36,171 bases of DNA from positions 1-36,171 of the IMG/VR virus record IMGVR_UViG_3300030116_005228; one strand, written 5' to 3'. The notes under the pieces were generated by a model. That model searched no databases and was not told the origin of the DNA. It saw only the letters and a list, made by a program, of their open reading frames with translations. The first letter of the stretch is position 1, and every line of letters begins with the position of its first letter. Both the position numbers and the translations under genes were made by a program. The stretch is from a virus. Of the stretch, positions 6,945 through 36,171 are shown in pieces.

Positions 6945-8608
6945 TGATGAACATTCTGGAAAAAGAAGACTTAATTAAAGGTCTTCCAGATAATGTTTTA
7001 CAGCAACAGATGAAGGCTCCTACAGGAGAGCTTCCCCAGTTCCTTTTGATATCTGAAATACAACGCAGAACAGATATGCGTAAAAAGCTTCAGGAGCAGC
7101 CTAAAAAAGAAACGGTGTCCGAGCAAATTATGATGGAAGGCATCATGTCTAACAGACCTCCTATGCAACCTCAGATGCAACAGCCACAGATGCAACCCCA
7201 AATGCAGCCACAGATGCCTCCTATGGATAGCCAAGGTATAGCTGGTTTATCTGCGCCTCCAATGGGTATGGCAGAAGGCGGGATAGTCAGGATGTTTCAG
7301 GGCGGTTTGCCCGGTGCGCCTAAAGGATTTCAAGGAAATCTTTTATCAGCAGATAATATGAAAAAACAAAAAGACTTGATTTATCAAAAACTATTAAATT
7401 TAGAAAATCTAAATGATATTGCTGCTAGTGGAGAGTTTGCTCCAGAAATTATTCAGTCGGTAATTAATGAAATGGAAGGCGAGGGTTTTAGAGGAAGACA
7501 GCCTTATATAGCAACAGATGATTCAGGAGAAACGACTGTAATTCCAACATCTAGAGAGCAACAGCAAACATTTGACAGATTACAAAGAAATGTAAATAGA
7601 GGTGACAGTCAGTCAAGCCCGTTTTCATATGAAAATAATATTTTAAGGGAAAACTTGTTTGAATCTTTAGGACAAGATAGAGAGGATGGAAAAGTAGAAA
7701 GCCGAGCATTAAAAGATGTGCTGGGTGGTTTTCTCCCCGACATGTCTGGAAGCAACACGCCTGTAAAAGATTTCTTTGGTGGGATGCGTTCTTTGTTTGG
7801 ATCTGGTGATGAAGGACCAACAAAAGCAGAAGAATTAGCAAGACTAAGAAGAAATTATGAAGCTGGTCTTAGGCCTGATGGAACTGCTTCAGATGTAAAT
7901 GTAACAGGATTTAACGAAGTGCAAAAACAAGGTGTTAATTCTAACGCTCAAGAACGTGCTGAAATAGTTTTTAATAAATTTAAAAACTTGGGAGACGCTG
8001 ACTCTAGAAAAACAAAAGAAGATGATATAAAAGGATCATTGCTGGGAGACTTGATAGGTTTTGGTAGATCAGCCCTTGAAACAGATGAGGATGCCTCGCT
8101 TCTCGATTATTCTGATTTGATTGAGCAAAGCAGAAGACAATCAAAGGGAGATGCCCTGACCCAGCTTGGCCTTGGAATAATGGGTGGCAGTCTGCAAACA
8201 GGCTTAGAAAGAGCAGCCAAGTCTGTGTCGAAAGAAAGAGATCGAGAGATGAAGTTGAGATTGCAAGAACGGATGTCTGGTCAGAAAGCACTAGAAGCTG
8301 ACAGAGCAAGAGGCATTCAGGCATTGGCGGCAGCAGCCAAAGTGCAACAGTATGCAGATCGTTTTTCTACAGAAGAAACGAAGCAAACAGAAACGACAAA
8401 AAGAGCAATATTTCAAACCGCTTTAAGAGAAGCTGGAGATTACTTGAAAGACAATCCCAACCCTCCTTCCTCTTTTAAAACAAATAACAAAAATAGAAAG
8501 GACGCATGGCGAAATCATATTATAGATCGGTATTTCAACCGAATTATGCAAAGCCTTGGAGGGGGTCGTGTTGATTTTAGTGGTATAGAACTTGAAGGAG
8601 TTGGTTAG
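6944..8608 (+). CDS. Internal virion-type protein with Met/Gln/Pro repeats
   Basis: A 554-residue protein starting at an ATG that overlaps the upstream TAA; a second ATG follows at once. After a helical N-terminus it has a repetitive segment of MQPQ-type units (about residues 73-95, nt 7160-7230) leading into MAEGGIVRMFQGGLPG, the same EGG[IL] motif found in the 1146-residue protein. The remainder is charged and helical, with an Ala/Lys-rich stretch (LTQLGLGIMGGSLQTGLERA, about 405-425) before a basic C-terminal domain. No enzyme motif is visible. Its place between the gp14-like gene and the giant protein suggests an ejection or scaffold-like role, comparable in position to T7 gp15. That is an inference from order only. 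Confidence 0.7.
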   Translation: MMNILEKEDLIKGLPDNVLQQQMKAPTGELPQFLLISEIQRRTDMRKKLQEQPKKETVSEQIMMEGIMSNRPPMQPQMQQPQMQPQMQPQMPPMDSQGIAGLSAPPMGMAEGGIVRMFQGGLPGAPKGFQGNLLSADNMKKQKDLIYQKLLNLENLNDIAASGEFAPEIIQSVINEMEGEGFRGRQPYIATDDSGETTVIPTSREQQQTFDRLQRNVNRGDSQSSPFSYENNILRENLFESLGQDREDGKVESRALKDVLGGFLPDMSGSNTPVKDFFGGMRSLFGSGDEGPTKAEELARLRRNYEAGLRPDGTASDVNVTGFNEVQKQGVNSNAQERAEIVFNKFKNLGDADSRKTKEDDIKGSLLGDLIGFGRSALETDEDASLLDYSDLIEQSRRQSKGDALTQLGLGIMGGSLQTGLERAAKSVSKERDREMKLRLQERMSGQKALEADRARGIQALAAAAKVQQYADRFSTEETKQTETTKRAIFQTALREAGDYLKDNPNPPSSFKTNNKNRKDAWRNHIIDRYFNRIMQSLGGGRVDFSGIELEGVG

Positions 8609-11600
8609 TGGAGATAACTCTTCCTAATGGAACTGTTTTATACAATGTTCCAGAAGATATGGGTGCGCTTGATTTAGCCAATATTGCTATTGCGAACAAT
8701 CTTGCAGTTGAAGAAGATTTTGCCGGGCTTGGTCTTTTTCCTGAAGTTCAAGAAGTGTTTGAAGAAGAAGAGGAGGAAGATGAAGAGCTAGGGTTTTTTG
8801 AGGGTATTGGCGATGCCTTAACAAACATTGCCACTGGAACCACTACAGGAATTCAAGGCATAACAAGCGGTCTGTTTAGTGTAGATAACGCTATATCCGA
8901 TTCAATGGATGAAACAGAAAGACTGTTACAGGAATATCTTTCTGCTCAAGCAAAAAACGATCAGCAAGCTATAGCAAAAATAGCAAAAGAAGCTGAAGAT
9001 AAAGGAATAGCAGATCAGCTTTATGCGGCTGGTGAATCCCTTGCTATTGCTCCTATTGATTTAACCGCTCAAGCTGTTGGAACAATGATCCCTCAGATTG
9101 CTGCGGCTGGTATCGGAGGGTTGTTTGGCGGTCCTCTAGGCGCAATTGCAGCGAACAGAGCGGTTGCTGCGGTACAAGGAGCAGGCTTTATAAGGGAGGG
9201 TATTTATGATGCGGTATATAGTGAATACATCAAGAATAACTTTCCAGAAGAAATTGCAAAACAAAAAGCGTTAGAAGCACAAGAACTTACCGGGGACAAC
9301 TGGTATCAGCTTCTTACTGGCGGTGGGCTTGGCTTGCTTGCTGGCGGAACGGGTGTTGAAAGAGGGATTATAAATAGGATTCTAGGAAAGAAAGTAGCTC
9401 ACAAGATGTCTCAGAATGTGGCGATCCGGGCAGGGAAAGGAGCCATCGAGGAAGCGATCCCGGAAGGATTGCAGGGAGCGCATGAAGCCTTGGCTGCTAA
9501 TACAGCCTTGCGGAATGAGGGATTTGATACGCCTCTGTTCCGTGGGGTTCCTTACCAAGGAGCCTTGGAGTTTGGTGTTGGTGCGCCTCTTGGTGGAATT
9601 ACCGGGGCGTTAGGCTCCCCAGAGGAGGCCAGTGGGGATCGGTTCTATGATAGAGAGCTTGCCCTGACAGAGGAGGCAATAAAGAAAGAATTAGGACTTC
9701 GTGAAGCAGAGAACGCTGAACTGGAAGCAGGCAGGCAGAATAGACTTGCAGAACTTCTGGCAGAGGGCGTTAGCGAAGAAGAAGCCTTGAGAGAAGCAGG
9801 AGAGCCTATTCCTCTTGATAGAAGACTCCCGGCTCCCAGAATTAAAGAACCACAAACAGCAGCCCTTCGCTCAGAGCAAGAGCGTGTTGATTTTGCCAAG
9901 AATTTTGCAAAAGATGTAGAGGTTCGCCACGGAGACTCTTTTAGCTCAATCAGGGGTGTAAATCAGCAAGGTCTTAAAAATTACACTGGCGATGTAATGG
10001 ACAGGGCTGGCAATGTCATTGCTTCCTTTGATGATCCGCTTGTTGCTGCCACAGTAGCAATCGAGTTGAATGCCAAAGAGGTAGATAAAACACTAAGATT
10101 CCACACTGATACAGTCATAGACCAAACTCCAGAAAACTATTCTTTTGGGCAAAGAAATGTATTGAGGAGGTTTGCCAGAAGACTTCTTCACCCGGATGAA
10201 AAGAGATTCAGTATTGACCAGATCAACATGGCTGCTGGAACGACTGTAGAGAATGGTTTTGAGAACGAAGGATTAAGCGCAGAAGAAGCAAAAGAAGCCA
10301 TAATCAAAGGCACAATGAAAGGTGATCAGCTTTCTGCCGCTCAAAAAATTAACTTGGCAAGAATCAGGGACGGCAAGCCTGTTCTCCGCTCTTTTTCTGT
10401 AAAAGAAGCGCAAGAAGCTCTTGGCAAGAAGTTCCCTTCACTTCTGAAATATGATGTCAATTATGATGGAGCCACCTATAGCGCAGAAACCAGAGATGGT
10501 GAGCCTGTGGTCGTATCCAGCTTTGGCGATGTCATCAAGACGAGAAGACAAAACCTAGACAGGATAGGTAAAAGACTTGCCGAGGATGATCAGCGAGTAA
10601 ACTTCTCTTCAATAGAAGACGCACAACAATATGCGAATGCTTTGAATGAAGCGTCAATAGATGGCATGGGTCCGTTGCGCTTTTTCTCTGAACTGTTTGG
10701 TAAAAACGAAATCTCAGTTAGTGATATAGAAAGCATTCTTGAATTCAAAAATATTAGTTCTGATATAAACTCCCCAGAAATAAGATACATTGCTTCTCTG
10801 GCAACCGGGAAACGTAAAGCTAAAATCCCGGAGATGTCTGATATAGATAGAAGGCTTGTATACAACACGCTTAGAAATCTTCCCAAGTTCCAGAAACCCA
10901 CCAGAATCCCCTTCTTTGCTCCCAAGCCGTATTCCCCGGCTCAATACGAGTATGTTTCCAAAGAACTTATTGAAAGAGGAGCAGTTCCTGACGCAAGGGC
11001 TGTTAGCGATGGCGTTAGTGCAATCACTGAGTTCCAGTACAAAAAACTAATCAGGGATGTCGAAAAGGATATAGGCGTACAGGCTCAAGCTCAAGAAGCT
11101 GCTGCTGCCAGAAATGAAGCAGCCAAGGCTGAAGAATCAGCAAAAAAAGCTGCGGATTTAGCTGAAAAAAGAGCGGCTGAAATAGAAAAGTCAGAGCGTG
11201 AGGAAAGAAAGCGAGTGCAGGAAGCCTTGAACAAGGTAATGAAGGGCTTCGGTTTAGATAGAGTTAGAACAAATGTTGTGGACTTGATGTCCAAGGCGGC
11301 TAGAGATGCTGATGGAAATCTGATCCTTGGCAAGGATAAGCGTCCTGACAGCGTAGAGGGAGGGTATGAGCCTGCCCTCAACGAAATATTTATTGCTCTG
11401 GAATCTATAAAAGCTAACCCGGAGTACACCGGGGACAATCTGGAGCAACTGGCAATAAGCATATTGAATCATGAAGTTCTTCATGCCATGCGCCAGCTTG
11501 ACCTTATCACCCAGCAAGAGTTTGAGTTGTTAGAAAAATTAGCTTCAAGAACAGTTCGCCCGGAAGGAATGGCTGGTGCTGGTCTGACATTTACAGAGTA

Positions 11601-14600
11601 TGCCAATCAAGCTTATAAAGAAGAATCTGAAACCGTCAAGATGGAAGAAGCTGTAGCAGAACTTGTCCGGGCTGGTTTGGAGGGCAGATTAAAAGGGATA
11701 GGTGGAAAGCCTCGATCCCTGATGAAAAGAATTCTTGAGTTTATTAAAAGAATGTTTGGCTTCAAGGACACTGTTGGTTACACCAGTTTTAGTGATTTGA
11801 TTGACGGAATCAGCGGAGGCCAGATAGGGGCAAGAAGAGAAGGAACGGTTCGATCCCTGAGATTAACAGAAAAACAAAGAGCAAAAGACAAAAAAGAACT
11901 TCCTTCAACTTATAGGGGTGTAATTCGTGAGGCTGCTATTTCTCCTGTACAGGATATTGAAGAAACAGAAGAAGTACAAGAAGCCCAAGATGCAGAAGAA
12001 GCTGTGGATCAGCGTCCACCTGCCAGAGGTCCGATAGGAAAGCAGGCAGAGGCAGACTTCCTTGAATCAAGAAGACTGACCGAGCCTCTTATAGACCAGA
12101 TACAAAGTGTTGAGGAAAAAATATATCGCCTTGAATCTGAATTAAGAGTGGATGGGCCTTTCTTGTCTGAGAAGAAGGCAAACGAATTATCAAGGCAAAT
12201 TTCAGAACAACAAGCCTTATTGGATAATTTAAAAAATGAACTTGCAAGAATTGATTCAGAAATTCCTCTTGATGTGGGCAGAGTTGTACCAGAGGGCGAT
12301 CTTCGTGTTTATCATGGCGGGACTTTAGACTCACCCGGAAGACAGGCGAGCGGTTTAACATTTGTTTCTGAAGATAGAGATCAGGCAGAGTCTTATGCTT
12401 TCAGGGCAGACAGAGATATACCTCAATCAGAAGACAAGCTCTTTTCTTTTTTCATTGACTCCACAAAACTTGCTAATGAACCAGAAGCAAGGGAAGTTAT
12501 AGCCGACTTGGGCATAGAGCCTGTAAATCCAAATTTAAGTTCAAATGAGGCAAATATCTATGAGCTTTTAGACCCCTTGTTTGAGCAATTTGTCGGGGAT
12601 GAAAATGTCTCTTCTTTTAAAAATGAAATGACAAGAAGAGGCTACACCGGGGTTAAGTTTTTAGATCAGGACATGAGGCGAACCGGGACTGGAAGGCAGA
12701 CAGCAGAAAACATTGTTTTGTTTGACACTCCTTACATGGGTCAATCGGAAATGCTTTACTCTAAGAGACTTTCTGATGAAGATTTGGAAATTATAAACTC
12801 TGAAAAATTCGGTGTTACGCCCTCAGTTAAAAGAGGCTATTTGGCGTATAAGTCTGGTGTGATTACCAGACAGGAATACGATGAAATAGTTCTTGAAACC
12901 ATAAAGCCTTATACAGAAGTTCCTTTGCCAGAAACAATAGAGCAAATGGAAAAAGCATTGGCTGCTAATAAAGTCCCAAATCTTTACAAGGAGGTAAAAG
13001 TAAAGGATGGTGAGTTTGTAGGTATAAGATTAGATATCCCGGCTTACCTTAGAAAGTTTCCTGACTCAGCTTGGGTTCCAACAGTTCATTTTAAAGGTGA
13101 AGATGGGCTAGAAAAAACATCTCATAGGGCAACTGTTTATATAAAAAGCAAAGGCGATCAAAAAATAGATTTTACAAAAAGAACCTCTCAGGCAGCGGCA
13201 CAACTTGTTATGGAAGCCGAAGAGGGAATTGCTGAAATCAATCGTAAGCTTGAAGCTGGAGAAATAACAGAAGAAAAAGCAACAAAGCTAAAAAAGAGAC
13301 ACAATAAAAATTCCTTTGCTAGGATTGAAGGAGAGTTCGTAGAAAGATCGGACAGAGAAAACTACGATGCAGCAGTAGCCGCCCTTAACGATCCTGAATG
13401 GACTCAGGTTGGTTACGATCCAAAAAGACATTCTTATTTTTACGATAGAAAAACAGGAGAACCAGTTACCTCTGCGGATGAGGTGATTCAAGTAGGACCG
13501 CTTGTCTTGGCTAAAAACGCCCAGAGAGACCCAGATTATGAAACCAGATATTCAAAAAGGTTTGAGCCGAAACATGGCATTCCGGGGATGTACATTAAAA
13601 AATCCAGAGGCAAGGTGTCAGGAAAGACATTTATGCCAAAAGCACTTAATCCTCAAAATGGACAGGCGCAAGGTGAGCGTTTTGATGAGTTAGCCAGAAG
13701 GCATCCCGACCCCTTGGGCAGTGAAGCATCTTGGTTACGATTTGAAAGAGAACTTCTTGGTGATAATGAAACACCACCAGCCCCTACAGGGCTTATTTCT
13801 CTGGTCAACAACATAGAGGACTGGGAGGAAAAACATTCCCAGTTAACACCAGCGCAAGTTAAAGCAGCGAAGGAAGGCTTTGAGCTTGTTGAGGTGATGA
13901 ATAAAGCCTATGCAGATGGAGATGTAGGTCCAGATACAACAGCGAAGCTCATGCTTTGGGGGATGCTTTCAAGAATGCTTTCAGCGTATCCCCATGAAGC
14001 AGCCTTTCTTGATGTTGCGGCAACAAAAGAGTTGTCTGAGTTTATAGACAAAGCAATACAAAAAGAATGGACTCAAGAAGATGTGAACAATTATCTTTCT
14101 TGGACATCAACGGTGTTGCCAAAGTTTTCCCCATCCAAATCAGCAACGTCAAACCTCAATGATTTTGGAAAGATATTTTTAAAGAAGCTTTCAAAAAGAA
14201 TGTCCGATGGAAGGTCAGGGCTGGAAGTGTTACACGATCTTGTTTCAAACAGATCAATTCCAACATCTGAAGTCAGGCGAAGATATTATGCGCTTGGACA
14301 AGGAATGGGCATAAAAAACAAAGTGCTTTCCTTTGTGTTATTGATGACAGGAAGGAATGATGTAGTTGTGCTTGATAGAATACAAATCAATTCCATGTGG
14401 GATGCTGGTAAGTTTGGAAAGCTTATTTATGATGATGTTGCCACGTTGTTTGACGATGCTCATGGTCTGGCTAGATATGAAGCTATTGAAAGATCGTTAC
14501 AACCTAGAATACAGGAGCTTTATGATCGTGTAGGAAGGCCAAAAGATGCTTCTGTTGGAAGATATCACTGGGAAAGCTGGGTAAGAGACTCTGGGCAAGT

Positions 14601-17600
14601 GGTGTCTCATCCTTCAATCGAAGGATTGACAAATGAAATAAAAATTGATCAGCCTCTGGCGGATTCTTATGCAGATATAGGTGCATCAGAGGGAAGATTC
14701 CATCAATATTCGTTTGGCTCAGTGTATGCGAGAGACAAAAAAGGAACTCCGTATATACTTTATCCTAAAAGCGATGGTACAATTCATAAGTTTTCTCTTG
14801 ATAAATTTAAAGGTTTATTAGATAAGTTTAGAGAACAAGGTGTAAATAAAGTAGTTCCAAAAGGGTTTCTTGTAAATAAATACAGAGAAGCTGGTTATCC
14901 TTGGTATGAAGCGGAGGGAGTAAATCGTGATAAAATCAATGAACTCATCGATGCCTTCTCAGAAGGAGAAGTTGATACAGAAGAAGTTGTTTCAGGGTCT
15001 CTCGAAACTAAACAGCCTGCCGATGTCTCCAGAAGAAGAGACACTAGGTCTAGACCAAAGACACAAAGAACGCACTCCCCGGAACAGATAGAAAAAGCCC
15101 TTGCTAAGAACGCTGAAGAGGCGGAAGCAAGCAAAGGCATAGCAGTACCCCCATATAGCACTAAAGCCTCCCCAGAAGCCCAGTATGTAGCTAGAAACCC
15201 TGATGCTGGTGCTGTTGATACAGGTATGCTTGAGAGTATCAGGTTCAGGCCAGAGCAACCTGCTGATATAAAAGAAATGATGGACAGGGTGGCAGGTGAA
15301 GCTCCCCAGCCAAGAAACCAAATTGATATCTATAACGACACGGTATTGCCCTTGGGAGAGAACTCCAAGTCCAGCCGTTTCAGGTATTATTTTGACAAGT
15401 TCAGACAGGCTTTCATAGATCGTTTTTCAAGGGTTGGTTATCTCCAAGCAAAGAATCGTGACCTGTTAAGTCAAACAGCAGACTCAAGTGCTTACACTGC
15501 TTTACTGAACGCAGATAGAGCCATAGGCGTAACTGCTGGCCTAATCAAGGACGGTACGGTGTTTTACCGGGATGGCGCAGTTCAGATAGATATAACTCAA
15601 AAATCCTTAATAGAAGTCTTATCTCCTCTCCAGTCCCTCAAGTATGGAAACCTTGAAAGAGAATGGAAAACATATGCGATTATCCAGAGAGGAGTGTTCC
15701 TGAACGAACAAGGAAAGCAAACGCCTGTCACTAAGGAAGACATAGCTAAAGCAAAATACCTTGAAGAGGCTTATGTTGATGAGAATGGCGAAAGCATTAT
15801 GCGTAAGGTCTATGATGACTGGCAGACGTTCAACGGCTTTACCATACAGTTTTTGCAAGACTCCGGGGTGGTGGATGCGAAAACAGCACAAGAATTTGCA
15901 AACTCTTTTTACTATCCGTTTTACAGAGCCGCAGAGGTAGGCGGAGGAGAGGTTGAGACTTACGCTCAAAACATGTTTGGTAACATGACCAAGGCTGCCA
16001 CCTTTACCAAGCTTAAAGGCAGTGAAAGTGCTGTCAACCTAGATCCTACTGTGGCCATTACCAGAAACCTCATGGCAGCGGTCCAAATGGGGATGAACAA
16101 CATTGCACAGCAACGTGTCGTAAGAGACATGTTAAAGCTAGGTTTGGCAAGGGAAGTTCCAAAATCAACTGCAAAACAAAATGGAATCGTTGAACTAAAA
16201 GTTCAGGGAGTGTCTAGAAAATTTATTATTGATGATCCCCTTGTGTTTGAAGCGTTGATGCCTATGGATGCAATCGAGGGCGGAGCGTTTTTTACTGCGC
16301 TTAATCTGCCTTCAAACATTCTCAGGGAAACGATTACCAGAACCCCTGACTTTGTTTTAGCCAACCTGTTGAGGGATAGCTTGTCTGCCTATGTGACTAC
16401 AGGGGCAAGCGTCAGAAATGTAATTCCTATGGCTAGTACACTAAAACAGTTTTTCAAGGGAGATGTTTCTGAATTAAACAGGTTCGGTCTGGTTCAGGGT
16501 TACGATCTTAGCCGACAAGAAGCGGATATCACAAAGTATTTTGAAAAAGAAAGAAAGAGAAACGAGAAGAGCTTTGCTTCAAAACTAAATCCTTTTACAG
16601 CCATATGGGACGGGCTAGGCTCAATGACTACCAAGTCCGATGCGGCAACAAGGCTTGCTGTTTATAAAGATGTGCTTGCAAGAACGGCAAACCATGCGGA
16701 GGCGGCTTTTCAGGCGCAGGAAGTAATGAACTTCGGGAGAAGAGGTAGAAACCAGACCTTCCGCTATGTGACAGCCGCAGTGCCTTTCCTTAATGCGAGA
16801 ATACAGGGTCTGGATGTATTGTTCCGGGCATTGTCTGGAAGCCAGAGCGCGATGCAGCAGCAAACTGCAAATCAAATCAAGGCAAGGGCGTTTACCAGAT
16901 TAACGATTCTTACAGGGATAACTTTCTTATACTGGATGATGATGCACGATGAAGATGAGTATAAAGAAGAAAACTCAGTTACAAGGGAGCTTAACTTCCT
17001 TATTAAAACACCCTTTGGTGTTCCATTCAAAATGCCAACAGCATTCGAGGTTGGCTTAATCAGCAAGGTTATCCCGGAAGCACTCTTTAACGCCAATGCA
17101 GAAGCAATTAACAAGTCAATGGGTAGGGATGGAGAAGTGTTTGATTACACCGCCAAACAAACCTTTGATACATTGTTCCATCAAATATTCAATGTCGTTA
17201 AGCTCAGTCCTTTGGATATTCAGCTTGTCGGCCCTTTCATTGAAGTGTTGGCTAACTATGACGGGTTTACTGGCAGGTCTATTGTTCCTTCTTACATAAT
17301 GGAAGGCGCAGGGGGAGGAGCGAGATACCCGGAAGAACAGGTAAGCCCATATAGTTCAGAGGCTGCAAAGATTATCGGAAAGGCAATAGATATGTCCCCG
17401 ATGAAGGTAGATCACCTGATAAAAGGCTATACCGGGACAATGGGCGGTTATGTTTCCTATATTGTTGATGCAATAGTTAGAAGTCATGCAGAGACTCAAA
17501 GAGGATTGCCGCCAGCAGTTCCGATGCTAGAGATGCCTGTGATAAGACGTTTCTTTGCGAAAGAAGCTCCGTCCGGGCTACGTTCTCAGGTGTATGAATT

Positions 17601-17937
17601 GTCTAACGAAATTGCTATGGCTACGCAAGCCATGAAATCAATGGAAGAAGCTGGCAAACAAGAAGAAGCAGAAGCTTTCTTTTATGCAAGAGAAGATTTG
17701 TTTAGGGAAAAGGGCAGAGTTAAACAGGCTCGAAGAGAAGTGGATCGTGTTAGAAAGGAAATCAAAGAGCTTATTGAAAGAGATGATCTGGATCAGGACG
17801 CAAAGCTTCAAGAAAAACAACGTCTGGAACTGCTGCTTAACGATTACTTATTGAATGCGATAAACCTTCCAGAGGTTTACTCCTCGATTGAAAGCACACC
17901 AGCCACCCGGTTTTTGAGACCGGGGGGATACAGATAA
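8608..17937 (+). CDS. Giant polyvalent virion protein with zincin-like, ART-like and LPD38-like regions
   Basis: A 3109-residue protein starting at a GTG that overlaps the upstream TAG. Regions: an N-terminal LPNGTVLYNVPEDMG module (3-33); an acidic run (about 47-66); Ala/Gly-rich hydrophobic helices (about 150-260); a coiled coil (about 828-878); an HExxH motif, HEVLH at 955-959, as in zincin metalloproteases; an ADP-ribosyltransferase-like region (about 1230-1375) with VYHGG, GLTFVSEDRDQAESYA and GYTGVKFLD; an HhH-like segment (about 1900-1930, MTGRNDVVVLDR); an LPD38-like region (about 2250-2680) with TRTPDFVLANLLRDSLSAY; and a charged helical C-terminus. Phage polyvalent proteins combine such domains and are packaged and injected to act on the host early. 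It closes the internal virion cluster, where T7 encodes gp16. The HExxH is directly visible; ART, HhH and LPD38 are family-level inferences. Confidence 0.8.
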   Translation: MEITLPNGTVLYNVPEDMGALDLANIAIANNLAVEEDFAGLGLFPEVQEVFEEEEEEDEELGFFEGIGDALTNIATGTTTGIQGITSGLFSVDNAISDSMDETERLLQEYLSAQAKNDQQAIAKIAKEAEDKGIADQLYAAGESLAIAPIDLTAQAVGTMIPQIAAAGIGGLFGGPLGAIAANRAVAAVQGAGFIREGIYDAVYSEYIKNNFPEEIAKQKALEAQELTGDNWYQLLTGGGLGLLAGGTGVERGIINRILGKKVAHKMSQNVAIRAGKGAIEEAIPEGLQGAHEALAANTALRNEGFDTPLFRGVPYQGALEFGVGAPLGGITGALGSPEEASGDRFYDRELALTEEAIKKELGLREAENAELEAGRQNRLAELLAEGVSEEEALREAGEPIPLDRRLPAPRIKEPQTAALRSEQERVDFAKNFAKDVEVRHGDSFSSIRGVNQQGLKNYTGDVMDRAGNVIASFDDPLVAATVAIELNAKEVDKTLRFHTDTVIDQTPENYSFGQRNVLRRFARRLLHPDEKRFSIDQINMAAGTTVENGFENEGLSAEEAKEAIIKGTMKGDQLSAAQKINLARIRDGKPVLRSFSVKEAQEALGKKFPSLLKYDVNYDGATYSAETRDGEPVVVSSFGDVIKTRRQNLDRIGKRLAEDDQRVNFSSIEDAQQYANALNEASIDGMGPLRFFSELFGKNEISVSDIESILEFKNISSDINSPEIRYIASLATGKRKAKIPEMSDIDRRLVYNTLRNLPKFQKPTRIPFFAPKPYSPAQYEYVSKELIERGAVPDARAVSDGVSAITEFQYKKLIRDVEKDIGVQAQAQEAAAARNEAAKAEESAKKAADLAEKRAAEIEKSEREERKRVQEALNKVMKGFGLDRVRTNVVDLMSKAARDADGNLILGKDKRPDSVEGGYEPALNEIFIALESIKANPEYTGDNLEQLAISILNHEVLHAMRQLDLITQQEFELLEKLASRTVRPEGMAGAGLTFTEYANQAYKEESETVKMEEAVAELVRAGLEGRLKGIGGKPRSLMKRILEFIKRMFGFKDTVGYTSFSDLIDGISGGQIGARREGTVRSLRLTEKQRAKDKKELPSTYRGVIREAAISPVQDIEETEEVQEAQDAEEAVDQRPPARGPIGKQAEADFLESRRLTEPLIDQIQSVEEKIYRLESELRVDGPFLSEKKANELSRQISEQQALLDNLKNELARIDSEIPLDVGRVVPEGDLRVYHGGTLDSPGRQASGLTFVSEDRDQAESYAFRADRDIPQSEDKLFSFFIDSTKLANEPEAREVIADLGIEPVNPNLSSNEANIYELLDPLFEQFVGDENVSSFKNEMTRRGYTGVKFLDQDMRRTGTGRQTAENIVLFDTPYMGQSEMLYSKRLSDEDLEIINSEKFGVTPSVKRGYLAYKSGVITRQEYDEIVLETIKPYTEVPLPETIEQMEKALAANKVPNLYKEVKVKDGEFVGIRLDIPAYLRKFPDSAWVPTVHFKGEDGLEKTSHRATVYIKSKGDQKIDFTKRTSQAAAQLVMEAEEGIAEINRKLEAGEITEEKATKLKKRHNKNSFARIEGEFVERSDRENYDAAVAALNDPEWTQVGYDPKRHSYFYDRKTGEPVTSADEVIQVGPLVLAKNAQRDPDYETRYSKRFEPKHGIPGMYIKKSRGKVSGKTFMPKALNPQNGQAQGERFDELARRHPDPLGSEASWLRFERELLGDNETPPAPTGLISLVNNIEDWEEKHSQLTPAQVKAAKEGFELVEVMNKAYADGDVGPDTTAKLMLWGMLSRMLSAYPHEAAFLDVAATKELSEFIDKAIQKEWTQEDVNNYLSWTSTVLPKFSPSKSATSNLNDFGKIFLKKLSKRMSDGRSGLEVLHDLVSNRSIPTSEVRRRYYALGQGMGIKNKVLSFVLLMTGRNDVVVLDRIQINSMWDAGKFGKLIYDDVATLFDDAHGLARYEAIERSLQPRIQELYDRVGRPKDASVGRYHWESWVRDSGQVVSHPSIEGLTNEIKIDQPLADSYADIGASEGRFHQYSFGSVYARDKKGTPYILYPKSDGTIHKFSLDKFKGLLDKFREQGVNKVVPKGFLVNKYREAGYPWYEAEGVNRDKINELIDAFSEGEVDTEEVVSGSLETKQPADVSRRRDTRSRPKTQRTHSPEQIEKALAKNAEEAEASKGIAVPPYSTKASPEAQYVARNPDAGAVDTGMLESIRFRPEQPADIKEMMDRVAGEAPQPRNQIDIYNDTVLPLGENSKSSRFRYYFDKFRQAFIDRFSRVGYLQAKNRDLLSQTADSSAYTALLNADRAIGVTAGLIKDGTVFYRDGAVQIDITQKSLIEVLSPLQSLKYGNLEREWKTYAIIQRGVFLNEQGKQTPVTKEDIAKAKYLEEAYVDENGESIMRKVYDDWQTFNGFTIQFLQDSGVVDAKTAQEFANSFYYPFYRAAEVGGGEVETYAQNMFGNMTKAATFTKLKGSESAVNLDPTVAITRNLMAAVQMGMNNIAQQRVVRDMLKLGLAREVPKSTAKQNGIVELKVQGVSRKFIIDDPLVFEALMPMDAIEGGAFFTALNLPSNILRETITRTPDFVLANLLRDSLSAYVTTGASVRNVIPMASTLKQFFKGDVSELNRFGLVQGYDLSRQEADITKYFEKERKRNEKSFASKLNPFTAIWDGLGSMTTKSDAATRLAVYKDVLARTANHAEAAFQAQEVMNFGRRGRNQTFRYVTAAVPFLNARIQGLDVLFRALSGSQSAMQQQTANQIKARAFTRLTILTGITFLYWMMMHDEDEYKEENSVTRELNFLIKTPFGVPFKMPTAFEVGLISKVIPEALFNANAEAINKSMGRDGEVFDYTAKQTFDTLFHQIFNVVKLSPLDIQLVGPFIEVLANYDGFTGRSIVPSYIMEGAGGGARYPEEQVSPYSSEAAKIIGKAIDMSPMKVDHLIKGYTGTMGGYVSYIVDAIVRSHAETQRGLPPAVPMLEMPVIRRFFAKEAPSGLRSQVYELSNEIAMATQAMKSMEEAGKQEEAEAFFYAREDLFREKGRVKQARREVDRVRKEIKELIERDDLDQDAKLQEKQRLELLLNDYLLNAINLPEVYSSIESTPATRFLRPGGYR

Positions 17938-18339: not shown

Positions 18340-18570
18340 TTATTTTTGGACTAGCTTAAAGCGTTTTGTCTTCTTTTCATGGTTATTGCCTTCTGGCCTG
18401 ACCTTTCCTCCACAGGTTTCTAGCCATTGAAAGAACGCTTTGGATGGAATTACCCAGCGATGACCCATGCGAATAGAAGGGATTTCTCCCCGTTCACAAG
18501 CCTTATAAGTTTGATTAATTCCAAGTGACAGAATTTTGGAGACTTCCTTAACCTGCAAAGTTGCCTTCAT
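18340..18570 (-). CDS. Excisionase/MerR-type helix-turn-helix DNA-binding protein
   Basis: A 76-residue protein with the layout of the excisionase-type HTH_17 family: VKEVSKILSLGINQTYKACERGEIPSIRMGHRW is a helix, turn and recognition helix followed by a wing, then PSKAFFQWLE. The basic C-terminal tail (KKTKRFKLVQK) could add DNA contacts. With no integrase in view, a role as a transcription regulator or DNA architectural protein is more likely than excision. GAGGAAACG precedes the ATG. Its stop codon touches that of the nuclease gene with no intervening base. A possible promoter (GGACAA at 18649-18654 with CATATA at 18627-18632, read on the minus strand) lies just downstream of the previous unit's terminator. 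Confidence 0.82.
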   Translation of the reverse strand: MKATLQVKEVSKILSLGINQTYKACERGEIPSIRMGHRWVIPSKAFFQWLETCGGKVRPEGNNHEKKTKRFKLVQK

Positions 18571-19633: not shown

Positions 19634-19842
19634 TCATCTCCTTTGAGTTTGCGTTCTATAAAAGCCTTTATATTTCTTGGAAGCTTTCTAGTAATGCCGC
19701 ATCTTTCATCTTCCCAGACATCAATTATCTTTTTATTCTGTAAATCAACTTGCCATTGAATTGAACCTCGATGGTCCTTGAGTTTGACAGTCCATCCGTA
19801 ATCACTGTCAGGAATGATTGTGTAGTTTTCTATTTTATACAT
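19630..19842 (-). CDS. Small unknown protein coupled to the primase-helicase
   Basis: A 70-residue protein whose ATG overlaps the TGA of the primase-helicase gene (TGATG), with MYKIENYTIIPDSDYGW at the start and a basic C-terminal helix (KLPRNIKAFIERKLKGDE). Beta-strand alternation in the first 45 residues suggests a small compact domain. The last codons (AAAGGAGATGA) double as the ribosome site for the next gene. No family recognised. Confidence 0.75.
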   Translation of the reverse strand: MYKIENYTIIPDSDYGWTVKLKDHRGSIQWQVDLQNKKIIDVWEDERCGITRKLPRNIKAFIERKLKGDE

Positions 19843-21599
19843 CAGAAATCAGACTCCCTTCCGTCCATCCAGTGTGGCTTCACTTTTGACGGATCGAATG
19901 ATTCATTAAACTCTTCTACCGGGCGATCAGAATAAATCCCAGTCGGCACATCGTAATCCAGTATTGTCATTCCCTGCTGACCCACCCATTTGAATCTGCA
20001 CTTCCAACAATGAATCTCAACTCCGTCCTTGCCTCGATGAACTGTCGCTCCAATGTCGGCCTTATTAAAGAAGTGTGCTGATCCACTGATCGACATACCA
20101 GTTGGAACTGTGTAGCTTCCATCTTCTTTCGGATACATCTTTGCAGGATGAGCGACAAACCAACAATGTAAATCGTGAGCTTTGCAGAACGTGGTTAGCT
20201 TAGTAAGTAACAGAGATACCGAACTGGTCTCATCCTCTCCCTCTCGTTCAATCATGTTATATGGATCAATAATAATTCCACGAACTCCCAGTCTCATAAC
20301 AGACTGTTTAAACCTTTCGATCAAACTGTCTATCGTGCTGACTGCGCCATCCCTTGAGTCCAAGAAAACAAAATGATTGTCGATGAATTCAAATGCTTCG
20401 TTCAGTTGAGTCTCATCCATGCGAGGATTCAATCCTTTGAAAAAAGGTCTCTCTGTAATTTTCTCTGCAAGCTTGGCGATGTGAAATGCTGGAGGATTTT
20501 CAAAGGATGCGACAGCAAACTTCCACGAATTATTTTGTGCTAGGTTAATCATAATCTGATCCAAGAATTCACTCTTCCCAGAGTTCGGCAGCCCAGTGAC
20601 GATGGTAAGTTGACCCGGTGCTACGGTAAACAATTCATCTACTGTTTTCAGCCCTGTACTGGTTCCTCGTCCCAGCCCCTCATTGTAGATGTCCTTGACC
20701 TGCATGGCGTAATCGCTTGCACCGTAAACACCTTTTAATGGGAGTGGGGAGGGGTTTTCTATAGCAGATCGTAAAATATCCTCTCCGTGATGCAATAGTG
20801 CGTCTGTAACGTCCTTACAGCCCTCTGGCAAGGAAATACTCCAACACTTAGCCCTACCTACACGCCTAGCTATCTCTTCCTGTAGAGCCTCTCCGGCCTC
20901 GTCAGCGTCTGTTGCAAGAATCACCTTTTCGACTCTTTCTATTACATGCCGAGCTTCCCATATGTAATTGAACTTGTTATCTTCAGATGGATCTATCTTT
21001 CGATTTGAAACTTTTGATGGCGCACCATTTGGGCAGCTCACCGCAGGGATTCCAATTGACGCTAAAGCAACTGCATCGGCTTCACCCTCTACTATTATCA
21101 GCGTGTCGGCATCTTCCGGGATTTGTTTTATGCCATAGAAGTCTCTGGCGTTGCCGTCTTGAGTAAATGCTTTTCCATCAATTGGTCTCCATTTGATTGC
21201 ATACGGCTCATCTGGATCTCCATAAAGAAAGCCAATTGCTTCTCTCTCTTCTTTAAACTTGGCGAAGTATTTTTTCCCGGTAGTGACAGGCATGGGGCAG
21301 TCTTCAAAAGAAATCCCGCGAGACTTAAAAAACTTTCTGATTATTTCTTTTTCTGAATTGAGTTGAGTGGGGATAGATATGACGTTGTCTTGTTCCAGAT
21401 ATTTTTCGTAGAACGGAGCCTTCTTGGGAATACATCCGCTAACGTCACAATGGAAACAATGATAAAGAGTTTCACTTGCAGTAATTGTAATCCCTAAAGT
21501 TTTTTCATTTGATTTTTTTCTTTCATGTGAACAGTTTGGACATACCACTCGGCCTGATTTGTTTTGTTCTTCCACAAATTCTCTTAACAACTCTTTCAT
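19842..21599 (-). CDS. Primase-helicase (Twinkle / T7 gp4-like)
   Basis: A 585-residue protein with the full layout of phage primase-helicases: a zinc ribbon (C20, C23, C48, C51), a TOPRIM fold with IIVEGEADAVAL (E171) and ATDADEAGE (about 230-237), and a RecA-type helicase with Walker A GLPNSGKS (336-343), Walker B IIIDPYN (D445) and a hexameric-helicase C-terminal region (WFVAHPAK). It should prime Okazaki fragments and unwind the replication fork in the 5' to 3' direction as a hexamer. An AAACGAAGGAG leader precedes the ATG. No DNA polymerase lies in this window, so it is either elsewhere in the genome or supplied by the host. It is the central gene of minus block 1. Confidence 0.95.
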   Translation of the reverse strand: MKELLREFVEEQNKSGRVVCPNCSHERKKSNEKTLGITITASETLYHCFHCDVSGCIPKKAPFYEKYLEQDNVISIPTQLNSEKEIIRKFFKSRGISFEDCPMPVTTGKKYFAKFKEEREAIGFLYGDPDEPYAIKWRPIDGKAFTQDGNARDFYGIKQIPEDADTLIIVEGEADAVALASIGIPAVSCPNGAPSKVSNRKIDPSEDNKFNYIWEARHVIERVEKVILATDADEAGEALQEEIARRVGRAKCWSISLPEGCKDVTDALLHHGEDILRSAIENPSPLPLKGVYGASDYAMQVKDIYNEGLGRGTSTGLKTVDELFTVAPGQLTIVTGLPNSGKSEFLDQIMINLAQNNSWKFAVASFENPPAFHIAKLAEKITERPFFKGLNPRMDETQLNEAFEFIDNHFVFLDSRDGAVSTIDSLIERFKQSVMRLGVRGIIIDPYNMIEREGEDETSSVSLLLTKLTTFCKAHDLHCWFVAHPAKMYPKEDGSYTVPTGMSISGSAHFFNKADIGATVHRGKDGVEIHCWKCRFKWVGQQGMTILDYDVPTGIYSDRPVEEFNESFDPSKVKPHWMDGRESDF

Positions 21600-30496: not shown

Positions 30497-30514
30497 GGTA
30501 GCCGTCAGGCTACC
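30497..30514 (-). promoter_or_regulatory. Intercistronic stem-loop between ArdC and the next gene
   Basis: GGTAGCC (30497-30503), a 4-nt loop and GGCTACC (30508-30514) form a perfect 7-bp hairpin. It covers the end of the ArdC-like gene, whose TGA lies in the loop, and ends two bases before AAGGAG of the next gene. It may stabilise the ArdC transcript 3' end or tune translation downstream. No T tract follows. Confidence 0.65.
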
Positions 30515-31419
30515 TTCTGTTGGGTTGATTGAAGATTGTGCAAGAACGTACACGCCTGATCTGCCTTCGCGCAAGCATCAAAAAAAGCGTGTGGAGTGAG
30601 TTTCTGAATCCACCCATTCAGGTACTTGGCATGGTCATCTCTGGTAGTACCTTCTTTGTAGATTCCCAGTTCGACTGCAAGGACTGCCGCAGAAATCTCA
30701 GCCACTAACTCTTCCATTGAATAAGCCTTGTCACCAAAAGATTTATGTTTGATCCGATTCAGTCTATGCTTAGATCCAGACCAGTGAGCCAGTTCATGTA
30801 ACAAGGTAGTGTAGAATGCTTCAATAGCTTTTGAACTATCGGTTGAGTGGAAGCTTTCAATGTTAGGCATCTGGATGAAATCACCACTAGGGCAGTAGAA
30901 CGCACGGTCTCCACCATACCTAATATCTACTTTGCAGTTCTTAATGAAAGCTTCGATAGCCTCAATGCGTTGAGCATCAGTGATCTCACCTTGAGACTCG
31001 GTAGGTAATGGATTGGCTTCTGCATACGTCACACCGTCTTTGTGGACTTGTTCTGCGCTGAAGACATTGGTGTAGGTTGCTCCGCCCTTTACCCAAACCT
31101 TCTCCCCAGACTCCTTATCTTTTTGATACTTGCCCTTGCCAAATCCCACGACTTGAGCCTCGCAAGTACAACCCTCACAAGAGTACCCCAGAGTTGCCCA
31201 CAGTCTCATGGTAGACCATCGTGGGTCATGACCATACTTTGTAAATGACAGATTCAATTGATTAAAGATGTTGTACGTCTTTCCACCTTTCATAGTCACA
31301 ATGTTTCTGTGTCCTAGTCCAAGTGAGGATGCCCATTGCTTAGTCCAATCAGAACCATTCTCTTTCATTGAATTATGGATTACCTCAAATACCTTTTCAC
31401 GATTAGTTAATTTATTCAT
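30505..31419 (-). CDS. ArdC-type antirestriction protein with zincin domain
   Basis: A 304-residue protein with both ArdC domains: an N-terminal single-strand DNA-binding part (about 1-130, with WASSLGLGHRNIV, GKTYNIFNQLNL and W-rich segments) and a C-terminal metallopeptidase-like part with LLHELAHWSGSKHRL (H208, E209, H212) and MEELVAEISAAVL as the downstream helix. ArdC proteins shield incoming DNA from type I and some type II restriction enzymes; phage relatives are likely to do the same early in infection. It is the largest gene in minus block 2. Its 84-nt leader holds three hairpins before AAAACGAAGGG. Family assignment is firm; in vivo target is inferred. Confidence 0.9.
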   Translation of the reverse strand: MNKLTNREKVFEVIHNSMKENGSDWTKQWASSLGLGHRNIVTMKGGKTYNIFNQLNLSFTKYGHDPRWSTMRLWATLGYSCEGCTCEAQVVGFGKGKYQKDKESGEKVWVKGGATYTNVFSAEQVHKDGVTYAEANPLPTESQGEITDAQRIEAIEAFIKNCKVDIRYGGDRAFYCPSGDFIQMPNIESFHSTDSSKAIEAFYTTLLHELAHWSGSKHRLNRIKHKSFGDKAYSMEELVAEISAAVLAVELGIYKEGTTRDDHAKYLNGWIQKLTPHAFFDACAKADQACTFLHNLQSTQQKVA

Positions 31420-33830: not shown

Positions 33831-33993
33831 CCTTTATAACGAGTGGGTTTCAAGATCATTACAAAATGGTTTTTGCGAGACAGGAGAAAAAATCCGGTCT
33901 CAACCGGGTGGACCCCGGCAGCACCACGCGAACTTGCAAAATGACCCAATCGCACTACCTTATATAGAAGAATAAAATGTGTAGGTGAATGGA

Positions 33994-34506
33994 ATGGCAG
34001 AGAAGAAAAAAGAATTGACCAGTAAGCAGTTGGCATTCGCAAAATGCGTGGCGAAATCGCCAGAGAATAAAAGCTTGGCAGATTGCTATAGAGAGGTCTA
34101 CGACTGTTCCCCATCAGCGAGTAGTCAAAGCATCAGAACATCAGCGTCAAGGTTGATGAAGAACCCCCACGTTGCAGATACAGTAACTCGCATAAGAGCC
34201 AAGTTGGAGGACGGATTACTTGCCTCCTCCCTCTCGTCCAGAACCAAAATCCTGAAGGTGCTAGAAGATACAATTGATGGGAAGCTTTCCAAAGACCCTA
34301 ACGAAATGGATTCAGTGAGACTAAAGGCAGTCGAACTCCTCGGACGTAATTTACAAATGTGGGGATCGGATACCACTGTGAACGTAGTAGAACGAGATAG
34401 TGAGACCCTGAGAGAAGAACTGACTGAAAAGCTTGGGAAAGTTCTTGGAGTTGTTCGCAAAGAGTCTGAGACAGAGCCAGAACCAGTAGATCAGACCAAG
34501 CACTGA
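33994..34506 (+). CDS. terS: Terminase small subunit
   Basis: The start is the ATG at 33994 with AGG eight bases upstream; an earlier GTG at 33985 is less likely. The 170-residue protein begins AEKKKELTSKQLAFAKCVA, then LADCYREVYDCS, SIRTSASRLMKNPHVADTV and RIRAKLEDG, the helix-turn-helix layout of phage small terminases that recognise the packaging site. A C-terminal acidic tail follows a helical oligomerisation part (LTEKLGKVLGVV). Large and small subunits together start DNA packaging. Unusually, the large subunit gene does not follow directly but begins 616 bp later. Confidence 0.85.
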   Translation: MAEKKKELTSKQLAFAKCVAKSPENKSLADCYREVYDCSPSASSQSIRTSASRLMKNPHVADTVTRIRAKLEDGLLASSLSSRTKILKVLEDTIDGKLSKDPNEMDSVRLKAVELLGRNLQMWGSDTTVNVVERDSETLREELTEKLGKVLGVVRKESETEPEPVDQTKH

Positions 34507-34781
34507 CTTCACGTAGGGTATCAGGAGTATGGCGTATCTCCTTGATTCCCCTAATGATAGTATGCCCACCCCATTCTTTTTTTCCGAGCTCCGACCCATA
34601 ACAGGCCCCCAGCCCCCCTCGAGCGACAGGCGCATGTAATTCTATATATATACTATTCCAGACATACGATTTCCTGAAAACACCGGGTACCCCCTTTAAT
34701 TTCCCATTATGACTTTATGACACAGCTTCCGGGTAAAATTTACCAGATCGGGGTTAAGGTTCCCCTGAAGGGGGGGTATAG

Positions 34782-34797
34782 TGTAGCGGTTGTAGCG
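34782..34797 (+). repeat. TGTAGCG pair, left arm of a long inverted repeat
   Basis: Two TGTAGCG heptamers start 9 bp apart (34782 and 34791). The inverted partner pair lies at 35072-35087, so the two 16-bp blocks match at 14 of 16 positions in inverse orientation and bracket the palindromes between them. Confidence 0.8.
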
Positions 34798-34844
34798 TGT
34801 AATATGACTAACCGGGGGGGAATAATATTTATTTGAAAAATAGC

Positions 34845-34872
34845 TTGACATCCTGTCAACCCCCCCTAATAT
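34845..34872 (+). promoter_or_regulatory. Plus-strand promoter with palindromic -35, probable terL promoter
   Basis: A perfect TTGACA (34845-34850) is followed after 16 bp by TAATAT (34867-34872, 4 of 6). The -35 is the left arm of TTGACATCCTGTCAA (34845-34859), a 15-bp dyad that could be an operator. A G7 run (34814-34820) and a C7 run (34860-34866) flank the dyad and could pair. Confidence 0.5.
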
Positions 34873-34915
34873 GCTAAAATTAATGCAATGTCTTATGGAA
34901 TCGATATATTCTGTA

Positions 34916-34930
34916 TCGAATAATATTCGA
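34916..34930. repeat. 15-bp palindrome TCGAATAATATTCGA, copy 1
   Basis: Seven-bp arms around one central base. Identical to copies at 34999 and 35033. This copy is further flanked by ATCGAT sequences on both sides, extending the symmetry imperfectly. Confidence 0.9.
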
Positions 34931-34955
34931 CATCGATAACATTCCATACGAGTAT

Positions 34956-34988
34956 ATTCTTATTTTTTTTTAATAAAAAAATATGAAT
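34956..34988. repeat. AT-rich imperfect palindrome
   Basis: ATTC-T-TATTTTTTT pairs with AAAAAAATA-T-GAAT around a 5-nt loop, giving 13 bp with one mismatch. Lying between copies 1 and 2 of the 15-bp palindrome, it is a candidate DNA unwinding element. Confidence 0.7.
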
Positions 34989-34998
34989 TATATTTCAA

Positions 34999-35013
34999 TC
35001 GAATAATATTCGA
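34999..35013. repeat. 15-bp palindrome TCGAATAATATTCGA, copy 2
   Basis: Identical to copies 1 and 3; with flanking A and T the symmetry extends to 17 bp. Starts 83 bp after copy 1 and 34 bp before copy 3. Confidence 0.9.
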
Positions 35014-35032
35014 TAACGATATATAATCTAAA

Positions 35033-35047
35033 TCGAATAATATTCGA
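35033..35047. repeat. 15-bp palindrome TCGAATAATATTCGA, copy 3
   Basis: Identical to copies 1 and 2 and, like copy 2, extended to 17 bp by flanking A and T. It ends 25 bp before the right-hand heptamer pair. Confidence 0.9.
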
Positions 35048-35071
35048 TATGAGTGGTAGTCTTTTTTTTGC

Positions 35072-35087
35072 CGCTACATGCGCTACA
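35072..35087 (-). repeat. TGTAGCG pair, right arm of a long inverted repeat
   Basis: CGCTACA at 35072 and 35081, again 9 bp apart, are the reverse complement of the left pair at 34782-34797. A degenerate third unit (CGCAACAAG) continues the 9-bp period to 35098. Confidence 0.8.
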
Positions 35088-35100
35088 TACGCAACAAGCA

Positions 35101-35116
35101 TGTTTCACATGGAACA
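35101..35116. promoter_or_regulatory. parS-like 16-bp near-palindrome before terL
   Basis: TGTTTCACATGGAACA matches the bacterial ParB-binding site TGTTTCACGTGAAACA at 14 of 16 positions. It lies directly upstream of terL and contributes the GGAA that would serve as its ribosome site. Binding by a host ParB is an inference only. Confidence 0.45.
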
Positions 35117-35122
35117 TTTATT

Positions 35123-36171
35123 TTGAAAATAGATTCTGAAACCTTGGCGAAGGTGCGTGATTTACCTGTTGCCGAGCAAGAAGAGATATTAAAGCTTCTG
35201 GAAGATATAGATGAGGCTGAAAAGAAGGAAGCTGCCCAGTCCGGGTTTATTCCTTTTGCCAAGTATATGTGGCCCGCTTTTATTGAAGGCAGGCATCACA
35301 AGATCATGGCGGAAGCCTTTGAGAAGATAGCGCGGGGCGAACTGAAGCGGTTAATAGTGAATATGCCGCCTCGTCATACCAAGTCCGAGTTTGCATCTTT
35401 TTTACTCCCGGCTTGGTTTCTGGGCCAGTACCCGGACAAGAAGGTTATCCAGACTGCCCATACCGCTGAATTATCTGTTGGTTTTGGAAGAAAGGTCCGT
35501 AACCTAGTCGCTAGTGATGATTTCAAGAAGGTTTTCCCTAACCTTGCGTTGAGGGCGGATTCAAAGGCCGCAGGACGCTGGAGTACCAGCGCAGGGGGAG
35601 AATACTTCGCTATCGGGGTTGGCGGGGCAGTGACTGGTAAAGGTGCTGACCTGTTGATTATTGATGACCCTCATAGTGAACAGGAAGGACAGAGTATCGA
35701 CCCGGCTGTATTTGACCGCACCTATGACTGGTACACCTCTGGTCCTCGACAGAGATTACAGCCCGGTGGGGCGATTGTTATTGTAATGACCCGGTGGCAC
35801 ATGCGTGACCTTACGGGCAAGATTATCAAGTCTTCCACCCAGAGACAGGGAACTGATGAGTGGGAGGTAATAGAATTTCCGGCAATCATGCCATCAGGGA
35901 ATGCCCTGTGGCCTGAATTCTGGAGTCTCGCGGAACTAACCGCGCTTCAATCTGAACTGCCTGCTTCCAAATGGAATGCACAGTATCAGCAAAATCCGAC
36001 CTCCGAGGGAGGCGCACTGGTAAAGAAAGAATGGTGGAAGATATGGGAATATGACAATCCCCCGCCATGTGATTTTGTCATACAGTCTTGGGACACAGCG
36101 TTTCTCAAGACACAACGGGCAGATTACTCTGCTTGCACAACATGGGGGGTATTTTACCACCCCGATGACGA
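35123..36171 (+). CDS. terL: Terminase large subunit, 3' end missing
   Basis: The frame is open to the right edge (350 residues visible). It holds Walker A MPPRHTKSE (residues 81-89), Walker B LLIIDDPH (177-184, D181 and D182) and the start of the nuclease domain with QSWDTAF (D324). WPAFIEGRHHKIMAEAFEKI near residue 50 is typical of this terminase family. The N-terminal helix IDSETLAKVRDLPVAEQEEI fits a start at the TTG at 35123, eight bases after GGAA; no in-frame ATG occurs before 35267, which would cut into the ATPase domain. The enzyme translocates and cuts concatemeric DNA at the portal. The 616-bp gap to terS and the TTG start suggest separately controlled, moderate expression. Confidence 0.93.
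   Translation, partial: MKIDSETLAKVRDLPVAEQEEILKLLEDIDEAEKKEAAQSGFIPFAKYMWPAFIEGRHHKIMAEAFEKIARGELKRLIVNMPPRHTKSEFASFLLPAWFLGQYPDKKVIQTAHTAELSVGFGRKVRNLVASDDFKKVFPNLALRADSKAAGRWSTSAGGEYFAIGVGGAVTGKGADLLIIDDPHSEQEGQSIDPAVFDRTYDWYTSGPRQRLQPGGAIVIVMTRWHMRDLTGKIIKSSTQRQGTDEWEVIEFPAIMPSGNALWPEFWSLAELTALQSELPASKWNAQYQQNPTSEGGALVKKEWWKIWEYDNPPPCDFVIQSWDTAFLKTQRADYSACTTWGVFYHPDD

Follow-up and report, generated by a model that had tools for sequence, protein, structure and literature searches.

Facing TGTAGCG Repeats between terS and terL of a Marine Phage: A Lineage-Specific, Possibly Iteron-Type Arrangement

The control region between the terminase genes terS and terL of a marine phage carries two pairs of the heptamer TGTAGCG that face each other from the two edges of an AT-rich segment. 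The arrangement is real and goes beyond chance. It is lineage-specific among the phages compared by sequence and combines a known architecture, that of facing iterons, with an unusual place. We favour the reading, drawn by analogy and given a probability of about 40%, that the heptamers are iteron-type binding sites, probably belonging to an origin or initiator module that only this lineage has. The window, i.e. the whole stretch of DNA analysed, comprises a linear virus record 36,171 bp long, which corresponds to a partial marine phage genome whose right end lies inside terL. In G022 a homologue of the first gene of the window sits 22.6 kb past terL, indicating that a comparable stretch (>20 kb) of the window phage genome is absent from the record.

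Sequence and Setting of the Heptamer Blocks

All heptamers are contained in the gap that separates terS from terL, which measures about 600 bp (617 bp as delimited for the shuffle test; Table 1). The repeat unit is TGTAGCGNN, present in two copies on the left and in two plus one on the right, the two sets facing inwards. The TGTAGCG pairs with a 9-bp period and their inversion were found exactly as the original prediction had placed them, and alignment of the two 16-bp blocks confirmed their announced agreement at 14 of 16 positions. A 6/7 match such as the additional right copy would turn up by chance in one or another of the four flanking slots with a probability of ~0.004; a third copy in the left block is poor (2/7 match). 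The AT content of the core (73%) compares with 52% in the part of the gap left of the left block.

Table 1. Coordinates of the features of the window discussed in the text.
Feature	Position	Strand	Remark
terS (small terminase, phrog_51)	33985..34506	+	upstream neighbour of the heptamer region
Left block, two TGTAGCG at 9-bp period	34782..34797 (34782-34788, 34791-34797)	+	sequence
AT-rich core between blocks	34798..35071	.	274 bp, 73% AT
Conserved promoter, TTGACA-n3-TGTCAA inverted repeat + extended -10 TGCTAAAAT	34845..34880	+	GTCAA-n9..13-TGnTAnnnT in 51 loci
Palindromic site TCGAATAATATTCGA, cluster A	34916..34930	.	sequence
Palindromic sites TCGAATAATATTCGA, cluster B	34999..35047 (34999-35013, 35033-35047)	.	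degenerate copy between, 17-bp steps
Right block, two inverted TGTAGCG at 9-bp period	35072..35087 (35072-35078, 35081-35087)	-	faces left block
Third right-block copy, degenerate TGTTGCG	35090..35096	-	sequence; 6/7, in register
parS-like 16-mer TGTTTCACATGGAACA	35101..35116	.	5 bp past right block, upstream of likely terL start
terL (large terminase, phrog_38)	35123..36169	+	cut off by window end
TOPRIM primase / DnaB-like helicase (phrog_239)	19842..21599	-	sole replicative helicase seen in window; not D5/VapE type

TGTAGCG occurs four times in the whole 36,171 bp, always in these blocks, against 1.5 occurrences expected; the heptamer count alone is weak evidence because 7 of 100 shuffles reach at least four copies. 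To assess the geometry, a test chosen post hoc counted the dinucleotide-shuffled versions of the 617-bp gap in which some 7-mer recurs with a period of 8-12 bp and the pair also has an inverted copy; 7 of 20,000 shuffles contained such a configuration. When the entire window was scanned with the same criterion, the heptamer arrangement was the sole case.

Coding explanations of the blocks were discarded. The 39-aa ORF that covers the left block (34717-34836) is without support. The 9-bp period also corresponds to three codons of the terL frame, which is open from an ATG at 35078 and has its likely start at the TTG at 35123; this coincidence is judged incidental because TerL of the relatives starts downstream of the right block.

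Elsewhere in the window, the protein encoded at 8608-17937 is 3109 aa long and bears an LPD38 (large polyvalent protein-associated) domain close to its carboxyl terminus. A helix-turn-helix protein, one candidate for a phage protein acting at the heptamer region, is encoded at 18340-18570. An anti-restriction protein (phrog_7245) is encoded on the minus strand at 30505-31419 and is ~25-38% identical to relatives found upstream of terS in several related loci.

Promoter, Palindromes and Repeats in Related terS-terL Gaps

TerL relatives led to 51 loci of the same layout, window included. In this shared layout terS is followed by a promoter of the GTCAA-n9..13-TGnTAnnnT type, which overlaps a TTGAC..GTCAA inverted repeat, and then by terL; the window fits this order and its heptamer blocks bracket the conserved terL promoter. 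Most loci have palindromes of 10-16 bp in two clusters after the promoter, often around a hairpin. The palindrome word depends on the phage: it is TCGAATAATATTCGA in the window, TTAAATANTATTTAA in L003-L006, and GAACGTTC, GATAGCTATC, GGTAATTACC and more in others. It differs between phages with ~75-98% identical TerL, and the copy number differs between the near relatives L004 and L005. Judged from these comparisons, the palindrome arrays look like a fast-changing operator specificity.

The window thus matches the 50 related control regions in promoter and terS-terL order, and most of them in the palindrome clusters. It differs in that the AGGA[AG]TCC element, present in 31 of the 50 loci scored, is missing from it and in that it alone has the heptamers. 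None of the 50 related gaps contains them, even where TerL is 92% identical, and no analogous inverted arms flank the corresponding places. Isolated TGTAGCG words number five in 132,669 bp upstream of terL (158 loci), with ~16 expected at equal base frequencies, and the pair TGTAGC-N3-TGTAGC is absent from 21 whole related records. The heptamers are thus lineage-specific and are not the limits of the conserved element. The original prediction, which saw them as defining such limits, is not supported: related gaps keep the promoter and mostly the palindromes in the absence of heptamers, and conserved features extend to the left of the left block. It had also proposed conservation in related genomes as a check, with free variation between close relatives counting against a function. 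This refuting observation was made only in part: the heptamers are missing from all relatives, those with 92% identical TerL included, in a comparison above sibling level in which the closest TerS shares only 39% identity.

The nearest relatives by TerL (92% identity) have a TerS that is only about 30% identical, the value of 39% being the best TerS match overall, and a search for close relatives by TerS found none. No match to the exact four-heptamer pattern was found in viral contigs. TGTAGCGNNTGTAGCG alone is present in at least 120 loci, many of them repeats within long open frames, and among the matches listed none lies beside a close TerL relative, the only terL neighbour being that of L198 (TerL 21% identity). 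A literature search for the word TGTAGCGG gave unrelated matches only, mostly microbiome and rRNA-type papers.

Other elements of these gaps deserve description. In the window and in eight relatives (L003-L008, L011, L013), the parS-like 16-mer (TGTTYCAYRTGGAACA) lies at most ~25 bp from the start of terL; 1.09 Mb of related loci contain no copy elsewhere. The variable distance to the start codon suggests that the site is real, and in several loci the 16-mer also provides a GGAA before the terL start. L007 and L008 carry the perfect palindrome TGTTCCACGTGGAACA at this position, which we take to resemble the bacterial chromosomal parS. Between terS and the promoter most relatives have a run of at least six C, a variable stretch of ~20 bp and then an element like TATATACATAGTA, of which window positions 34600-34660 hold a diverged version, TATATATATACTATTCC; this segment is a candidate cos/pac region. 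In the distant named phages L253 (HTVC027P), L254 (DSL-LC04) and L255 (023Pt_psg01), A/T tracts of the AAAAAATTTTnTGCAAAATTTT type are also found just before terL with a GTCCC or GGATCC-like element upstream, and the promoter/palindrome block is not apparent.

The predicted model of TerS is helical with a confident amino-terminal four-helix region (mean pLDDT 77.5), consistent with a helix-turn-helix (HTH) protein. In the pairs L016/L019, L049/L050 and L054/L055, the amino-terminal HTH region of TerS is strongly different while its carboxyl terminus and the palindromes are nearly identical, which suggests that the DNA-binding specificity of TerS is locally diversified or swapped. Between L054 and L055 the gap diverges most strongly in a short stretch directly following the C-run, which is a candidate site for TerS. 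TerS had been suspected to read the terL-proximal palindromes, from one HTH residue that apparently matched the palindrome type (GKD, GKA, GKH), an idea dropped since the same three pairs change the HTH region and keep their palindromes.

Possible Roles of the Facing Heptamers

Inward-facing TGTAGC-N3-TGTAGC pairs separated by 71-131 bp were found at 21 viral loci, about 13 of them distinct, mostly intergenic and with AT-rich cores. Of 16 records tested by whole-record search, 13 encode a DUF5906/VapE or DUF3987 helicase; the three others are 6.6, 10 and 23 kb long. The helicase gene adjoins the array in L342, L343, L344, L349, L351, L353 and L355. Six named phages with helicases of this kind were examined; in two of them inward-facing pairs with a 9-bp period lie just downstream of the gene, with the word GTATCC in phiFL4A and CTGACG in AcaML1. 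The background is low: under a looser 6-mer rule an inward-facing pair, with period 10, was seen at one of 80 unselected loci (576 kb), and 1.65 Mb of other phage DNA contained no TGTAGC-N3-TGTAGC. The shared TGTAGC word was considered as proof of a common initiator. This was weakened by the reversed word CGATGT, used as control, which gave five facing arrays, at least one of them (L365) beside a relative of the AcaML1 primase; TGTAGC arrays are at most few-fold commoner. Since other words form facing arrays too, the shared word is weak evidence, and on present comparisons the array architecture appears to be general while its word varies. Inward-facing pairs with a 9-bp period and various words, mostly adjoining VapE/D5/DUF3987 genes, were recorded in L342-L344, L349, L351, L353, L355, L361-L365, L367 and L368. 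Such pairs, usually with an AT-rich core, could serve as a search rule for candidate origins in viral contigs.

We infer protein binding, origin function and acquisition of the module. The TGTAGCGNN iterons would be bound by a sequence-specific protein at both edges of the AT-rich segment, most likely to initiate or control replication; the protein sitting on both facing arrays would melt or bend the core, where a replicative helicase would then load, as inferred for the origins of satellites (PICI, P4-like) and of D5/VapE phages. Alternatively, an array-bound phage protein may bridge the arrays and control the terL promoter between them, and looping between the blocks is possible. The module would have been gained, or its recognition word changed, in the window phage only, and would overlap the older conserved terL promoter. 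The improbable arrangement (7/20,000), the extra in-register copy, the 73% AT core and the recurrence of the same architecture in phages with D5-type helicases all speak for an origin. Against it stand the core length of 274 bp versus roughly 50-180 bp in the comparison arrays, the position after terS and not after a rep gene, and the lack of conservation of the heptamers. Promoter and palindromes occur in relatives that have no heptamers, so their function does not need these repeats. The original suggestion that facing iterons can load an initiator is supported by analogy with the inward-facing pairs of other phages, 13 of 16 tested having D5/VapE-type helicases, and with PICI origins; the matching initiator is wanting in the window, where no D5/VapE/DUF5906/DUF3987 gene was found, nor was DUF5906 found in eight related records. 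With no D5-type gene and a longer core, origin function is proposed here in the conditional.

The explanation that comes next, possible but less probable, makes the heptamer pairs operators of a phage-specific transcription regulator that loops or bridges across the promoter to tune late (terL) transcription. The left block lies 48 bp upstream of the TTGACA element and the right block just before terL, so that the two bracket the conserved promoter; the gaps of relatives are full of phage-specific repeated sites, and L007 carries the motif CCTGATCA on both sides of its promoter. However, no other family member has analogous inverted flanking arms, no regulator was identified, and direct repeats at 9-bp spacing that face each other are the pattern of origin-like arrays. 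That the blocks are short 9-bp tandem duplications of a fast-evolving gap, inverted by accident, is unlikely in our view. The heptamers are indeed absent in all relatives, the gap evolves fast and the analysis is post hoc; moreover the right block resembles ATGCGCnTA, present in single copy at the same place in L003-L005, so that local tandem duplication could have produced it. Such an accident fits poorly with the shuffle frequency, the in-register copy and the use of one word in two separate blocks.

Lower still we rank a packaging signal, in which the repeats would be TerS-binding (pac/cos) elements. Their location between terS and terL is suitable and TerS has strongly diverged from its relatives (22-39% identity), as have the repeats. 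Yet the three TerS pairs described above change the HTH region with most of the gap nearly unchanged, which means that the repeats of the gap do not just follow the specificity of TerS, and the relatives must package too but do so without facing heptamers. It is also quite improbable that this lytic phage carries a satellite-type origin without its matching initiator, on which a D5-type Rep supplied by a satellite or a co-infecting element could act in trans; if so, the site would be a decoy, a trap or a hitch-hiking origin. The least credible proposal lets the two blocks pair into a long stem, in a cruciform or in read-through RNA, instead of serving as protein sites. The single-strand fold is better than in 100 of 100 shuffles (z -7.6) with the blocks paired, but this z-score reflects internal palindromes too, extrusion is rare when the arms are 274 bp apart, a transcript from the terL promoter contains the right block only, and a stem has no need of 9-bp tandem repetition within its arms.

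Were the heptamers an origin, a marine phage group for which we know of no described origins would have its initiation linked with the terS-terL control region, and iteron modules would change between phages that share >90% of their terminase sequence.

Comparison with PICI, P4 and D5-Type Origins

The origins of phage-inducible chromosomal islands (PICI) are described as two iteron sets on either side of an AT-rich region (PMC6092414). Like the PICI/SaPI pri-rep-ori and the P4 alpha-type origins, the window has two facing sets of 9-bp units around a 73% AT core; it differs from them by having no pri-rep (D5/VapE-type) gene, by the location of its array after terS in the packaging region, by the 274-bp core and by lack of conservation. 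Oppositely oriented sets of direct repeats and an AT-rich region between them are therefore both found, whereas the array is 3' of terS rather than immediately 3' of an initiator gene and no cognate D5/VapE/DUF5906/DUF3987 initiator accompanies it. Because both the position and the presence of the initiator gene fail, membership of the PICI/D5 origin class is not claimed.

The arrays of VapE/D5/DUF3987 phages adjoin the helicase gene, whereas the TOPRIM/DnaB-type helicase of the window, a type shared with the related records, is encoded 13 kb from the heptamers. An arrangement that works like a PICI/D5 origin is nevertheless the leading reading by analogy. Enterococcus phage phiFL4A, Acidithiobacillus phage AcaML1 and the loci L343, L344, L349 and L351 have intergenic, inward-facing repeats with an exact 9-bp period as in the window, and several arrays of this kind use the same TGTAGC word.
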